From assembly GCF_017916505.1 (NCBI RefSeq), contig NZ_JAFMSZ010000001.1, positions 1 through 64,000 on the forward strand: a stretch of 64,000 nt of DNA, given 5' to 3'. Shown here in pieces: positions 7,984-59,602 of this stretch (position 1 is the first letter of the stretch; each line of letters begins with the position of its first letter). This DNA is from Naasia sp. SYSU D00057 (lineage in GTDB: Bacteria; Actinomycetota; Actinomycetes; Actinomycetales; Microbacteriaceae). The position numbers and the translations under genes were made by a program. The notes beneath the pieces were generated by a model. The model ran no database searches. It was not told the DNA's origin and worked only from the letters and a program-made list of their open reading frames with translations.

Positions 7984-8093
7984 CCGGCGACGTCCAGGCG
8001 ATTCGGCTTGCGGGCGGCTTCGCGGCCGGCGCGCACTCTCCGCTTCCGTGGCGGATTGCACGACCGCGCGGACGCAACTGCTCGTGCCCGACG

Positions 8094-9462: not shown

Positions 9463-13592
<4,130 letters not shown>

Positions 13593-19627: not shown

Positions 19628-19732
19628 CGTCGTCCGATCTGCGGCGGCCACGGCGGCCGGCGGCGGTCGTCCGCACCGCCCGGGGGCGCTCGGGAGGGTG
19701 CCCTCCCGCCGGTGCGGCAGGATGGAAGCACC

Positions 19733-21241
19733 ATGAGTGACACCGACCGCGAGTACGACGCCGGCGACGACGACCTCGAGCAGCGCCTCGCGACCCTCGA
19801 CGAGGACCTCGCCCAGCGCCGCGCCTCGTCGCTGCGCGCCGGCCTGAACGACTACGAGCTGGAGGACGAGGACCTCGACATCCTCGACCTCTCCGTCGAG
19901 GACCCGGACGAGGTCCGCTACCTCCCGGCGCTGCCGGTGCTCGCGATCGTCGGCCGGCCGAACGTCGGCAAGTCCGCGCTCGTCAACCGCATCCTCGGCC
20001 GCCGCGAGGCGGTCGTCGAGGACGTCCCCGGCGTCACCCGCGACCGCGTCTCGTACCGGGCGGAGTGGAACGGCCGCTTCTTCACCCTCGTCGACACGGG
20101 CGGCTGGGAGCCGGACGCGCGCGGCATCGACGCGTCCGTCGCCGCTCAGGCCGAGGTCGCCGTCGACCTCGCCGACGCCGTGCTCTTCGTCGTGGACGCT
20201 GTCGTCGGCGCGACCAGCACCGACGAGCGCGTCGTCCGGATGCTCCGGCAGAGCGGCAAGCCGGTCCTCCTCGTCGCCAACAAGGTCGACGACGCCGTGC
20301 AGGAGCCGTACATCGCCGAGCTGTGGTCCCTCGGTCTCGGCGAGCCGCATCCCGTCTCGGCCCTGCACGGCCGCGGCGTCGCGGACCTGCTCGACGCCTC
20401 CCTCGACGTGCTGCCCGAGGTGTCCGCCGTCGCCAAGGAGGAGGTCGGCGGACCCCGCCGCGTCGCCATCGTCGGCCGGCCGAACGTCGGCAAGTCGAGC
20501 CTGCTCAACAAGGCCGCGGGGGAGGAGCGGGTCGTGGTCAACGAGCTCGCCGGCACCACGCGCGACCCGGTGGACGAGCAGATCGAGCTCGGCGGGAAGG
20601 TGTGGCGCTTCGTCGACACGGCGGGCATCCGCCGCCGCGTGCACATGCAGCAGGGCGCCGACTTCTACGCGTCGCTGCGCACCACCGCAGCACTGGAGCG
20701 CGCTGAGGTCGCCGTCGTCGTGATCGACGTCACGGAGCCGATCAGCGAGCAGGACGTCCGCATCATCGACCTCGTCCTGCAGTCGGGCCGCGCGCTCGTG
20801 CTCGCGTTCAACAAGTGGGACCTGCTCGACGACGAGCGCCGGCGGCTGCTCGAGCGGGAGATCGAGCAGGACCTCGCGCACGTCGCGTGGGCGCCGCGCG
20901 TGAACCTGTCTGCCCGCACCGGCCGGCACCTCGAGAAGCTGGTCCCCGCGATCGAGCTCGCGCTCGACAGCTGGGACACGCGCATCGGCACCGGTAAGTT
21001 CAACGCCTTCCTCGCCGAGCTCGTCGCCGCCCACCCGCACCCGGTGCGGGGCGGTCGGCAGCCGCGCATCCTGTTCGGCACGCAGGCGTCCACGCGCCCG
21101 CCGACGTTCGTGCTGTTCACGACCGGATTCCTCGACCCCGGCTACCGGCGCTTCATCCAGCGCCGCCTCCGCGAGATCTACGGCTTCGAGGGGACCCCGA
21201 TCGTGCTCAACATGAGGGTCCGCGAGCGCCGCAAGAAGTAG
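19733..21241 (+). CDS. der: Ribosome biogenesis GTPase Der (EngA)
   Basis: This 502-residue protein has two tandem G domains, with [12 protein letters not shown] at about residue 75 and [12 protein letters not shown] at about residue 250, each followed by DTGGWE or DTAGIRRR and NKVD or NKWD motifs. A KH-like C-terminal domain completes the EngA architecture. It acts in 50S subunit assembly. An acidic N-terminal extension of about 65 residues precedes the first G domain, which is common in actinobacteria. The ATG at 19733 follows GGAAG. Confidence 0.96.
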
Positions 21242-21348
21242 CGCCGCCGCTCCGGCGGGTCGGACCGGGTGTCGCCTGGTGGGCCGGGCGGGGGCCGTAC
21301 GTCGGGTCTGCGCGGGCATGCCGTCCGCTTCAGCAGGCATGGATGTGG

Positions 21349-21425
21349 TTCAGCAGGCATGGGTGTGTTTCAGCAGGCATGGGTGGCCATGATCTGCCTG
21401 CTGGTGCCGTTCCGTGCCTGCTGGA
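21349..21425. repeat. 77-bp dyad unit A1
   Basis: F at 21349 and 21369, R at 21396 and 21416. Spacers are 10, 17 and 10 bases. Both R copies end GG instead of GA. A further exact F lies at 21329. Confidence 0.85.
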
Positions 21426-21504
21426 CCGAATACCGAAGCCGCTAGGTGCCTGCTGAGCAGGGCGGTGCCCGCCCGCATGTCGCTCAGCAGGCGATGCCGG
21501 GCCG

Positions 21505-21581
21505 CTCATCAGGCACGCGTGCTGTTCAGCAGGCATGGGCGGCCTTGTTCTGCCTGCTGATGCCGTTCCGTGCCTGCTGAA
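21505..21581. repeat. 77-bp dyad unit A2
   Basis: F at 21505 (two mismatches, CTCATCAGGC) and 21525, R at 21552 and 21572. Spacers are 10, 17 and 10 bases. TTCAGCAGGCA and TGCCTGCTGAA form a perfect 11-bp inverted pair. Confidence 0.88.
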
Positions 21582-21655
21582 TCGAGTACGGAAGCCGCTG
21601 CAGCCCTGCGGCACAGGGCGGGCCCGCAAGTCGTTCAGCAGGCGATGCCGGAACG

Positions 21656-21732
21656 CTCGGCAGGCACGCATGCTGTTCAGCAGGCATGGGCGGCCTTGTT
21701 CTGCCTGCTGATGCCGTTCCGTGCCTGCTGAA
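21656..21732. repeat. 77-bp dyad unit A3
   Basis: F at 21656 (two mismatches, CTCGGCAGGC) and 21676, R at 21703 and 21723. Spacers are 10, 17 and 10 bases. It is nearly identical to unit A2. Confidence 0.88.
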
Positions 21733-21783
21733 CCGGGTACGGAGGCCGCTAGGTGCCTGCTGAACCGCGCTCAGCGGCGACGC

Positions 21784-22620
21784 TCAGTGGCGGGCGAGGA
21801 CGGCCATCACCGTCTCGAGGACGAGCGGCCACTCGTAGATGACGTGCGCGTAGCTGAAGTGCAGGACGGTGAGGCCTCGCTGGTTGAGGAGCGCGGTCCG
21901 TCGCCGGTCACGGGAGAAGGACCCCTCCTGAGCATGGGTGGACCGGCCGTCGAGCTCGATGACGAGCCAGCCGTCGATGAGCAGGTCGACCCGGCCCACT
22001 CCGGGCACGACGACCTGCGGTTCCGCTCGGATGCCCGACAGCTGGAGCCGATATCGGGCGATCGACTCGATCCCCTCCTCGCTCCGCCCGTCGACGTGCT
22101 GAGCGACCCGCGCAAGGTGCGGCGGCAGTCCGGCCAGCAGTGCGAGGACCGCCCCCTCGGAGGCGATCCGGCGGAACAGGAGCGAGTCCAGGATGGCGAC
22201 CGCATAGTCGGCGGGCTGGCACTCGACAGCATGCGCGATGGCGCGGGGGAGTGAGCTGACGCCCTCCGACCACTCCTGCCGATCGACCTTGGAGTGCCAG
22301 TGGACGGTGACGCCGTCGCGAGTCGCCGGGTCCGCGTTCCTCAGGCGCCGTCCGGCCGCTGAGAACGGCATCGCGAGATGCAGCCCGGTGTCCGGCGGGC
22401 ACCAGGCGCCGTAGAGCCGCAGCGCCGACACGCATCCGGGGCGGCCGCCGAGCTGCATCGCCCTGATCAGGTCGGGGTCCGTCCCCGGCTCGGCGTACCA
22501 GCCGCGGACGACCCGCTGCAGCCGGCCGTCCTGCAGGGACCGCTGCACGCCGCCGAGTGTCATCCCTCGATCCCGCAGCGTCGCGCTTCGCAGAAGGGGT
22601 GGGGTCCGGAGAGCAGGCAT
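21784..22620 (-). CDS. AbiEi-type winged-helix plus DUF559 (PD-(D/E)XK nuclease-like) protein
   Basis: This 278-residue protein has an N-terminal segment (LRDRGMTLGGVQRSLQDGRL then QRVVRGWYA) resembling the winged-helix of AbiEi-type antitoxins. Its C-terminal half (about 185-275) resembles the DUF559/Vsr-like nuclease fold, with a Glu in EEGIESIARYRL, Asp in VGRVDLLIDGWL and the ExD pair in VIELDGRSTHA, then DRRRTALLNQRG. No cognate AbiEii toxin lies beside it, so a standard toxin-antitoxin pair is unlikely. It is bracketed by repeat clusters A and B. Its start codon sits inside a degenerate repeat copy (AGAGCAGGCAT on the plus strand). The function is unknown. Confidence 0.82.
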   Translation of the reverse strand: MPALRTPPLLRSATLRDRGMTLGGVQRSLQDGRLQRVVRGWYAEPGTDPDLIRAMQLGGRPGCVSALRLYGAWCPPDTGLHLAMPFSAAGRRLRNADPATRDGVTVHWHSKVDRQEWSEGVSSLPRAIAHAVECQPADYAVAILDSLLFRRIASEGAVLALLAGLPPHLARVAQHVDGRSEEGIESIARYRLQLSGIRAEPQVVVPGVGRVDLLIDGWLVIELDGRSTHAQEGSFSRDRRRTALLNQRGLTVLHFSYAHVIYEWPLVLETVMAVLARH

Positions 22621-22724
22621 GCCGGCAGTGTGCGGCGCAGGGCCGGGCGGACGCGGCCCCGGGAGGAAGTCGCAACAAAGGCCGTCTTCCGATCGTGCTG
22701 GGGAGGACGGAGGCTTGGTAGGGC

Positions 22725-22801
22725 GTCAGCAGGCACCGAGTGGGTTCAGCAGGCGCGGCAGGCCCGATTTCGCCTGCTGAGTCGCGGATGTGCCTGCTGA
22801 A
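22725..22801. repeat. 77-bp dyad unit B1
   Basis: F at 22725 (one mismatch) and 22745, R at 22772 and 22792. Spacers are 10, 17 and 10 bases. It begins about 105 bp upstream of the DUF559 gene start codon. Confidence 0.87.
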
Positions 22802-22906
22802 GACGATCGCCGTCCCGATCAGTGGTGAAGGCGCCAGTTGAGAACGCAGGTTTCAGCCGACCGACGGTGGCGGCTGCGGAGTGGGAGGCGATTCCTGCTG
22901 GACCGC

Positions 22907-22983
22907 TTCAGCAGGCGCCGACGGGGTTCAGCAGGCGCGGCAGGGCCGATTTCGCCTGCTGAGCAGCGGATGTGCCTGCTGAA
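22907..22983. repeat. 77-bp dyad unit B2
   Basis: F at 22907 and 22927 (both exact), R at 22954 and 22974. Spacers are 10, 17 and 10 bases. The 17-base spacer differs from that of B1 by one base. Confidence 0.88.
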
Positions 22984-23067
22984 GCAGATGTCCTGTGCAG
23001 CGGGGGAAGCGCGGTGCCCGGCTGGGTCGGAAGTGTTCCTGCTGAGCCGGAGGTGCCCGTGGGCGGC

Positions 23068-23144
23068 TTCGGCAGGCGTGGAGGGGATTCAGCAGGAATG
23101 GCAGGGCCGATTGTGCCTGCTGAACCGTGCGCATGCCTGCTGAA
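23068..23144. repeat. 77-bp dyad unit B3
   Basis: F at 23068 and 23088 (one mismatch each), R at 23115 and 23135 (both exact). Spacers are 10, 17 and 10 bases. Confidence 0.86.
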
Positions 23145-23345
23145 GCCGATGCCGGTTTCTGCCGAGCGGCCCAGGTGCCTGCTGAGCGGGAGGCTTGCCT
23201 GCTGAACAGGGCCCCCGCCCGGCCCCTGCCCGCCCCGCCCTGCCCCCCGCCTCGGCCCGCCGCCCTGCCCGCAAGCCCATCCCGAGGGAGACCGAGCCCG
23301 GGACCGGCGGCGCGCGGCCCAGGCAGTGCCGCGCGCCGGGCAGGG

Positions 23346-23726
23346 TCAGCTCATCCGCTGCGAGATGCAGATGAAGTTGCCCTCGCTGTCGCGGAACCAG
23401 GCGGTGCGGGCCTCCTCGTCCTCGACCACGCCGTTCTCGGTCTTCATCACACCGGGAATCTCGAAGTCCTCGAACACGACCCCGCGCTCGCGCATGACCC
23501 GCATCTCCTCGGCGAGGTCGTCCGTGCCGAAGCACAGCTGCGTGTTCTTCGCGGTGCCCGCGTTCTCGGTCTCGTAGAGGTCGAAGGCAGAGCCGTCGAC
23601 GCGGTAGGTGAGGAGGCGGCCCTCCTCGTGCTCCTCGGCGGGATCCAAGCCGAGCATGTCGTGGTAGAACCGGCGAGCCCGGGCCAAGTCGGCGGCGGGC
23701 AGCACGGCGTGCATTTCCTTGAGCAT
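23346..23726 (-). CDS. VOC (glyoxalase/bleomycin-resistance) family protein
   Basis: This 126-residue single-domain VOC protein starts MLKEMHAVLPAADLARARRF and has the paired beta-alpha-beta-beta-beta halves (LCFGTDDLAEEMRVMRERG in the second). The ATG at 23726 has GGAGGAGC a few bases upstream; an open frame continues upstream but is Pro/Arg-rich noise. The metal ligands cannot be fixed without alignment, so the substrate is unknown. Confidence 0.87.
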   Translation of the reverse strand: MLKEMHAVLPAADLARARRFYHDMLGLDPAEEHEEGRLLTYRVDGSAFDLYETENAGTAKNTQLCFGTDDLAEEMRVMRERGVVFEDFEIPGVMKTENGVVEDEEARTAWFRDSEGNFICISQRMS

Positions 23727-24001
23727 GGTCGCTCCTCCAGGAACGGGAGTGGCCCGGGAGTCGACGGGCCGGGGAAGGGCGAAAGCGTCACGCAGGCGCT
23801 TCCCGTCCGGCGGCGGTGCCGTCGGGAAGAGGGTCAGCCGAATGCTACGCCGCACCCATCCGGCGCGGCAGGGGGCGGAACGGGGGCGCCGACGCCCGTG
23901 GAGACGGCACCGAGCGCCGCCCGTCCACTGGGGCGACAGGGGCGCGCAGCGGGCGGAAGATGCCCGGGAATGCGGACGCCGCCACGCCGGTTGCACCCGA
24001 C

Positions 24002-57767: not shown

Positions 57768-59602
57768 CGCCGCCGGCGGCGGGTGCCGAAGATGCCCTCG
57801 ACGATGCCGGTGAGCACGGTCTTCGTCACCGGCGACCGCAGCACCTCCTCCATCGGCGAGCGCTCGGGACGCCGACGGGGCGTCGTGCGAGTCCGCCTCT
57901 GCTCGGAGCGGGCGGCCCTCTCCTCGCGGGAGCGCTGCCGCTCGATCGCCTCCTGCTGACGGCGGAGCTCCTCGTCCGCCTCGGCACGGGCGCGCTCGGC
58001 CTCCGCCGCCTCGGCGGCGCGGGACGCCGCCTCGAGGTGCGCGGCGAGCAGCTCCCGCGCCGACACCCGGTCGAGCGCGGCGCCGTACCGCGGGAGCAGG
58101 GGAGAGGCCGCGATCGCGGCGTCGATGCCGGCGTCCGGGGTCGGCGACATCGAGCCCCGCGGCGCCCGCAGCCGAGTCCACGCCACGGGGGTCGGAGCGC
58201 CGCGCTCGCTCATCACGGTGACGATCGCCTCGCCCGTGCCGAGCACGGTGAGGACCTCCTCGAGGTCGTAACCGGACGTCGGATAGGTGGACGCGCTCGC
58301 CCGCAGCGCCTTCGCGTCCTCCGGCGTGAAGGCCCGCAGCTGGTGCTGGATGCGCGACCCGAGCTGGGCGAGCACGTCGCCCGGCACGTCCTTCGGCGTC
58401 TGGGTGACGAAGAAGACGCCGACGCCCTTCGACCGGATGAGCCGCACGGTCTGCACGATCGACCGCAGGAACTCCTTCGACGCGTCGGCGAAGAGCAGGT
58501 GCGCCTCGTCGAAGAAGAACACGAGCTTCGGCCTGTCGAGGTCGCCCACCTCGGGCAGCTCGTTGTACAGCTCGGCGAGCAGCCACATGAGGAAGGTCGA
58601 GTAGAGCGCCGGCTGGTCCTGCACCTCTGGCAGCTCGAGCAGGCTGATGACGCCCGCTCCGTCGGTCACGCGCAGCAGGTCCGCCGTGTCGAGCTCGGGC
58701 TCGCCGAAGAAGACGTCGGCGCCCTGGTCGGCGAACGTGATGAGCTTCCGGAGGATCACCCCGACGGTCGCCTTCGACAGGCCGCCGAGCCCGGCGAGCT
58801 CGCCCTTGCCCTCGTCGCTCGTCAGGTAGGCGAGCACGGCGCGGAGGTCGGCGAGGTCGAGCAGCGGCAGCCCCTCGAGGTCCGCGTAGTGGAAGACGAG
58901 CCCGAGGCTCGACTCCTGGGTGTCGTTGAGCCCGAGCACCTTGCTCAGCAGCACCGGACCGAAGCCGGCGACGGTCGCGCGGATCGGCACCCCGCGCCCC
59001 CGCCCGCCGAGCGAGAAGAACTCGGCGGGGAACGCGGCGGGCGCCCAGTCCTGGCCGATGCCGCGCGTCCGGTCGAGCAGCCGCTCGCTCGGCGCGCCCG
59101 CGGTCGCTACCCCGGAGAGGTCGCCCTTGACGTCCGGCGCGAAGACGGGGACGCCGTGCGCCGACAGCTGCTCGGCGAGCAGCTGGAGCGTGCGCGTCTT
59201 GCCGGTCCCCGTGGCGCCCGCGACCAGGCCGTGCCGGTTCGTCATCGCGAGCGGGATCCGGATCGGCACGTCCGCTCGGGGGTCGCCGTTGACGAGGGCG
59301 CCGAGCTCGAGCACCGGTCCTTCCCCGGCGTACCCGACGCGCACGGCGTCCACCTCCGACTCCGACAGCGGACCCGGTGCGGCGGGTGCGCTCGGTGCGG
59401 CCGGTTCGCTCGGTGCGGCCGGTTCGCTCGACGCGGCCGGTGCGCTCGATGCGGCGGGTGCGCTCGGTGCGGACGCCCGGCGGGCGGCCTCCTCGGCGCG
59501 GAGGACGGCGGCTTCCGCCTCCTCCTGCGCCCTGCGGAGGGCGGCGATGGCGGCGTCCGCCTCGGCTCGGGCGGCGGCGACGGGATCGACGTCCTGGCTC
59601 AT
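57764..59602 (-). CDS. HerA/DUF853-type ATPase (YjgR-like)
   Basis: This 612-residue P-loop ATPase has an Ala/Ser/Pro/Glu repeat linker at residues 35-75 after a coiled N-terminus. Walker A is GATGTGKTRTLQLLAEQ and Walker B is KLVFFFDEAHLLF, followed by the VGVFFVTQTPKDVP and RIQHQLRAFTPEDAKALRA segments of the DUF853 family. The C-terminus (about 510-600) is a charged coiled-coil. The family is related to HerA hexameric translocases; its cellular task is not established. Confidence 0.92.
   Translation of the reverse strand: MSQDVDPVAAARAEADAAIAALRRAQEEAEAAVLRAEEAARRASAPSAPAASSAPAASSEPAAPSEPAAPSAPAAPGPLSESEVDAVRVGYAGEGPVLELGALVNGDPRADVPIRIPLAMTNRHGLVAGATGTGKTRTLQLLAEQLSAHGVPVFAPDVKGDLSGVATAGAPSERLLDRTRGIGQDWAPAAFPAEFFSLGGRGRGVPIRATVAGFGPVLLSKVLGLNDTQESSLGLVFHYADLEGLPLLDLADLRAVLAYLTSDEGKGELAGLGGLSKATVGVILRKLITFADQGADVFFGEPELDTADLLRVTDGAGVISLLELPEVQDQPALYSTFLMWLLAELYNELPEVGDLDRPKLVFFFDEAHLLFADASKEFLRSIVQTVRLIRSKGVGVFFVTQTPKDVPGDVLAQLGSRIQHQLRAFTPEDAKALRASASTYPTSGYDLEEVLTVLGTGEAIVTVMSERGAPTPVAWTRLRAPRGSMSPTPDAGIDAAIAASPLLPRYGAALDRVSARELLAAHLEAASRAAEAAEAERARAEADEELRRQQEAIERQRSREERAARSEQRRTRTTPRRRPERSPMEEVLRSPVTKTVLTGIVEGIFGTRRRRR

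Follow-up and report, generated by a model that had tools for sequence, protein, structure and literature searches.

The gap between the der/engA GTPase gene (19712..21241, plus strand) and the convergent VOC/glyoxalase-like gene (23346..23735, minus strand) of Naasia sp. SYSU D00057 contains a nuclease gene surrounded by palindromic units, which raises the question of what these units are and what the gene has to do with them. The window analyzed here, a stretch of 64,000 nucleotides, is part of contig C11 of the 3.36-Mb genome of this strain (G000). An earlier note had described six 77-bp units around the gene, in which a ten-mer (F) and its inverse (R) follow each other as F, 10 bases, F, 17 bases, R, 10 bases, R. 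A site search recovers all six, in register and with this order and spacing, at 21349..21425, 21505..21581, 21656..21732, 22725..22801, 22907..22983, and 23068..23144, each by its pattern and geometry and with no strand assigned. The ten-mers themselves are far above chance: allowing at most one mismatch, TTCAGCAGGC and its inverse occur at 36 sites in the 64-kb window, compared with an average of 2.5 in shuffled sequences, which never reach 36. The array is nevertheless less uniform than the note implied. Several of the 24 ten-mers in the six units carry one or two mismatches (CTCATCAGGC at 21505, CTCGGCAGGC at 21656, and GCCTGCTGGT at 21396 are examples), a third F site, at 21329, precedes the first unit by 20 bp, lone F sites occur at 21483 and 21634 and lone R sites at 21448 and, after the third unit, at 21755 (21755-21764), and an unstranded half unit (R-10-R, with R at 23177 and 23197) occupies 23177..23206. 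In the congener G004, the der and VOC genes are directly adjacent, with neither nuclease nor units between them. Repeats of other kinds also occur in the window, namely densely packed, GC-rich tandem repeats at 551-1042, whose periods range from 18 to 72 bp and which probably lie in a repetitive coding region, and an 18-bp tandem array, CGGTGCGGCCGGTGCGCT, at 59374-59472 (5.4 copies, 90% matches).

The six units belong to a dispersed family in which one palindromic unit is present in about 70 copies. The full four-site pattern is found at 70 places across G000 and a reversed-pattern control at none; in four congeners it is found at 1-13 places each, and a pattern with a shorter core at 6-31. 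When 84,980 species were scanned for exact matches, in a set from which the genome of the window was possibly left out, only Naasia and A. flavum gave any. The spacing within these copies is strict. In 800 kb of G000, same-strand neighbors of the core CAGCAGG are 20 bp apart in 154 cases, compared with 6 cases at 19 bp and 15 at 21 bp, and the inner distance from F to R is 26 bp in 64 cases and 25 or 27 bp in one case each. Among 72 units aligned from the same 800 kb, the motif columns show 96% pairwise identity and the spacers 39-47%, and the same four-site geometry recurs with other spacers in four congeners. The units end in tTCAGC/GCTGAa. An invariant spacing with divergent spacers, seen in five congeneric genomes, bears out the proposals that the geometry is selected, that the units are not a simple satellite, and that they are likely to form a protein-binding array; it is also the outcome of the comparison with relatives that the note had put forward, spacing being conserved more than spacer sequence. 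Tandem clusters of units or half units, in which as many as seven units share a single site, are found at 10199-10741 of locus L078 and at 223860-224009 of contig C16 of G000, which suggests local amplification.

The same note had offered a structured RNA element as the other option, and the data do not support it. Folded as single strands, the units do give strong predicted hairpins, with MFE z values of -4.7 to -6.8. However, the two spacer arms of a unit are no more complementary to each other than to the arms of other units, with a z of roughly -1 to -1.5 in G000, which shows no compensatory pairing, and in the other genomes z is near zero, the center alone reaching 2.3 in G008. A structured RNA with selected spacer pairing is not supported, as compensatory base changes within units do not rise above shuffles in the five genomes. 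An Rfam search of the units gave only sub-threshold matches to vertebrate miRNAs, a chance likeness of hairpins; no T-tract is consistently present at the units, and neither a GTAG nor a CGTC tag was found at the hairpin foot, the GTAG foot being absent from the unit consensus. Selection is thus visible on the sites and their spacing and not on the pairing of spacers, which favors recognition by a protein of all four sites of the dyad.

Where the copies lie in the genome is equally specific. In the 800-kb sample (24% of G000, with genes called by our own simple hexamer gene finder), all 38 unit clusters are intergenic, 22 of them between convergent genes, 13 between tandem genes, 2 between divergent genes, and 1 at the end of a stretch. 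In the background of gaps of at least 100 bp, 55 lie between convergent genes, 137 between tandem genes, and 82 between divergent genes, so that the convergent excess has a p of about 1e-8. Convergent gaps are the classical location of REP sequences (PMC3733652). Between species, 7 unit positions are shared and 5 are absent, in a comparison biased by the choice of stretches for holding units. Insertion of a unit would be tolerated mainly downstream of genes.

The gene in the middle of the array (21784..22620, minus strand) encodes a protein of 278 aa with an AbiEi-like N-terminal part and a DUF559/MTES_1575 domain of the EDxHD type. Its nuclease residues are intact: all of 17 diverse members of the family have E185, D212, D224, H229, and D238, and in an alignment of 114 sequences E185, D212, H229, and D238 each account for at least 97% of residues in their columns, E222 for 94%, and R241 for 95%. 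A search of the PDB with the family profile matched 3hrl (1.6e-8) and 3r3p, a 'Mobile intron protein' (1.6e-4), which we take to be the EDxHD homing endonuclease I-Bth0305I. From the family motif, we infer that the conserved residues correspond to the catalytic residues of that enzyme. At the N-terminus, sequence comparison indicates a domain resembling the DNA-binding domain of AbiEi: the window protein matches AbiEi_3_N weakly (17.3 bits, for a cut-off of 26), AbiEi_4 matches 6 and AbiEi_3_N matches 4 of the 17 members, and PADLOC gives an AbiEi match at 1e-3. No DUF1814 nucleotidyltransferase toxin gene was found adjacent to the window gene, whose neighbors are der and VOC, and an AlphaFold model made without an alignment was too poor to use (pLDDT 36). 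EDxHD enzymes of the I-Bth0305I kind are reported to dimerize on target sequences almost 60 bp long (PMC3943268), and AbiEi antitoxins, including Rv2827c of M. tuberculosis, autoregulate through multiple inverted repeats (PMC7319586). By analogy with both, a symmetric complex on the 77-bp four-site dyad would be plausible.

Within the genus, gene and units go together. The subfamily of the window protein (52-66% identity in the alignment) is genus-specific and occurs in G000, in two copies, and in G003, G004, G006, and G007, with a pseudogene in G008. Most copies adjoin an sdhB-like gene, the window copy being the one between der and VOC, and dyad units lie on both sides of every copy inspected, including the G008 pseudogene. 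The flanking motif varies with the copy, being CAGCAGGACTTTCTGCA for the second copy in G000, CAACAGGC in G004 and G006, and CAGCAGGYGAAA-like in G003, and the spacing is 19 bp at the sdhB-adjacent copies and 20 bp at the window copy and the pseudogene. Dispersed CAGCAGG/CAACAGG dyads, counted with an outer-pair pattern, number 15-52 in each of G003, G004, G006, G007, and G008, compared with 1 in G001 and 0 in G002, which both lack the subfamily; the incomplete genome G005, in which no gene was detected, has 14. Among the matches listed for the 52 dyads of G004, the majority are CAACAGGC, the motif that flanks the gene of that same genome. On a smaller scale, other paralogues show the same, with dispersed CCCAAATCACGGA and AATGCAGGA dyads in G008, CGCGGATCAGGA and GACCAAATCAAGGAGA dyads in G006, and CAGCAGGACTTTCT dyads in G000. 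Some motifs are common to several congeners, as are their genes. In some congeners, however, the amplified units are spaced by 20 bp and are not an exact match to those on either side of the resident gene, where the spacing is 19 bp, so that orphan families have to be assumed. In an uncultured Naasia MAG (G008, locus L050, 634-1426), a decayed nuclease gene lies between two intact units beside sdhB, which indicates that units outlive the gene. Two further observations concern the genus: contigs C1-C6 of G001 carry as many as nine DUF559 genes, whose motifs, AATTCAGG and GATCCGGA among them, were not found in the other genomes sampled, and at locus L113 of G000 (position 7997), the flanks of a gene that is not next to known units align with a score of 63, far above other genes.

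The association extends beyond Naasia. We compared the left and right 450 bp of homologues drawn from Microbacteriaceae and other Actinomycetes, leaving out of the flank statistics one locus (L195) that is a contig-end artefact. In a looser test, whose single-gene control includes the window nuclease, the two flanks align with each other better than 99% of mismatched flanks do at 54% of 114 loci, and 46% fail. A stringent test, which demands an identical exact 9-mer dyad of equal span on both sides, was passed by 38 of 113 nuclease loci, compared with 9 of 2000 mismatched flank pairs; another contig-end artefact, L235, was kept in the looser test and left out of this one. Among control genes of similar size from five genomes, the stringent test was passed by 0 of 618, or by 1 of 619 if the window nuclease is counted. 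About two thirds of the class-wide loci thus fail it. A link between nuclease and units that is merely local is ruled out by these flanks, and the AbiEi/DUF559 protein that had been proposed as the partner of the units is supported beyond the window, as its homologues across the class have flanking dyads of their own.

Across Actinomycetes, the gene-flanking units span 53-138 bp; the distance from the end of the upstream one to the start of the protein's aligned part has a median of 162 bp, and that from the aligned end to the start of the downstream one a median of 49 bp. The clear cases comprise 27 inverted and 13 direct pairs, a mixture which argues against a single transposon-like end structure. 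CAGG points inward in 19 of the 38 motifs and CCTG in 3, as expected of one recognition mode with variable extensions, and motifs unrelated to one another (L184, L248, and L176) also come as double sites with a distance of 19-20 bp. In one other genus (G024, 400 kb sampled), no more than one or two dispersed copies exist of the unit that most clearly flanks a gene, so dispersal is not automatic. Homologues of the nuclease are also carried by one short phage record (MT839994.1, 3332-4108) and by four actinobacterial plasmids (NZ_LR134454.1, NZ_LR134468.1, NZ_LR134466.1, and NZ_CP116225.1).

We consider it probable that the units form a family of palindromic repeats dispersed between genes and that the nuclease gene they flank encodes the cognate protein, which multiplied them in the manner of a RAYT. 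The best reading is a partnership similar to REPIN/RAYT, with a sequence-specific nuclease in place of the HUH transposase. The association of gene and units is itself shown by the data, and binding of the nuclease to the units is likely. The protein would most likely contact the CAGCAGGC sites in the form of a symmetric oligomer, on DNA that is double-stranded or extruded, which would account for the need for a fixed 20/27/20 spacing. Cleavage and mobilization are steps that we infer: the nuclease, or an ancestor of it, would nick or cut DNA at the units and provoke repair or copying, which would multiply the units and keep the gene bracketed by them, as a RAYT does with its REPs or REPINs. 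Different motifs for each paralogue would then give several nuclease-repeat pairs in one genome. It counts against such activity that an active nuclease facing about 70 chromosomal targets would need restraint. More tentatively, with the chances somewhat against it, these AbiEi-EDxHD nucleases may constitute a hitherto unrecognized class of intragenomic replicators in Actinomycetes that bracket themselves with private multi-site palindromes, copy these across the genome with a specificity set paralogue by paralogue, and do so without a transposase.

Next in our ranking comes a regulatory function, which we regard as unlikely, in which the units are operators through which the AbiEi-like protein represses its own gene, the copies scattered over the genome serve as decoys or make up a regulon, and the nuclease domain has another task, such as phage defence. 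The autoregulation of AbiEi antitoxins such as Rv2827c on multiple inverted repeats (PMC7319586) is in line with this, as is the position of the upstream unit, but an operator explains neither the equal unit past the end of the gene nor the location of the dispersed units, which are found at 3' ends and seldom in divergent promoter regions (2 of 37), and the DUF1814 partner gene is not adjacent to the nuclease. We give slightly less credence still to the units being bidirectional terminators or mRNA 3'-end hairpins, which we place third and in which the link to the nuclease would be the by-product of a selfish gene that insulates itself. The strong predicted hairpins and the placement between convergent genes are what such elements should show, yet the spacers lack compensatory change within units, the motifs are conserved as sequence beyond mere pairing, the T-tract is not consistent, and a private motif for each paralogue is left unexplained.

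It is very improbable that the units are ordinary MITEs or IS-derived ends moved by an unrelated transposase, the nuclease being a passenger in repeat-rich gaps. Dispersed intergenic palindromes whose presence differs between species would fit this origin, but a passenger cannot explain copy-specific dyads on both flanks across the class or several nuclease-repeat pairs in one genome, and Y1 transposase, the only transposase screened for, is absent from the genus. The dispersal of the units by the nuclease therefore ranks first. The partnership of this nuclease with a repeat family looks previously undescribed: within the open-access literature, subscription literature and outside preprints being beyond the scope of the search, no paper joins DUF559 with AbiEi, and papers on DUF559 that concern palindromic repeats or homing are unrelated by their titles and abstracts. 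Actinobacteria commonly carry several copies of DUF559/AbiEi-type genes, which are so far unexplained. Should every such gene be flanked by a palindromic target of its own, genome sequences would reveal the protein-DNA specificity of natural pairs in the hundreds, a large family now listed as 'unknown' could be tested for its function, and REP-like repeats would be seen to arise with an enzyme other than an HUH transposase.

Among known systems, the closest is REPIN/REP-RAYT (PMC3116915, PMC3733652), in which a repeat-flanked gene spreads its repeats (PMC3116915). The likeness includes short extragenic palindromes with paired inverted sites in tens of copies, their location in convergent and tandem gaps, the flanking of the cognate gene, and several gene-repeat pairs per genome. 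In Naasia, however, the candidate cognate protein is an AbiEi-like plus EDxHD nuclease and not an HUH/Y1 enzyme, and the units have four sites, a fixed spacing of 19-20 bp, and no GTAG foot. Indeed, the Y1/HUH transposase domain PF01797 is absent from G000 and eight congeners, in a screen whose controls matched in 5 of 14 genomes; with the defining transposase absent, the pair is not a member of REPIN/RAYT, although by analogy it may work like one. I-Bth0305I (PDB 3r3p; PMC3943268) shares with the Naasia protein a catalytic domain that is homologous by profile and the EDxHD-type residues, whereas the Naasia gene is intergenic, bracketed by dispersed repeats, and outside introns and conserved genes. 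The arrangement is not that of a homing endonuclease element, since the window gene lies in the der-VOC gap and interrupts no gene or intron. The type IV antitoxin AbiEi (Rv2827c and S. agalactiae AbiEi; PMC7319586) has an N-terminal DNA-binding domain that the N-terminus of the Naasia protein weakly resembles, and it is known to bind inverted repeats beside its gene (PMC7319586). The Naasia protein differs from it in ending in a nuclease, in having no DUF1814 toxin as a neighbor, and in its repeats, which occur also downstream of the gene and throughout the genome.
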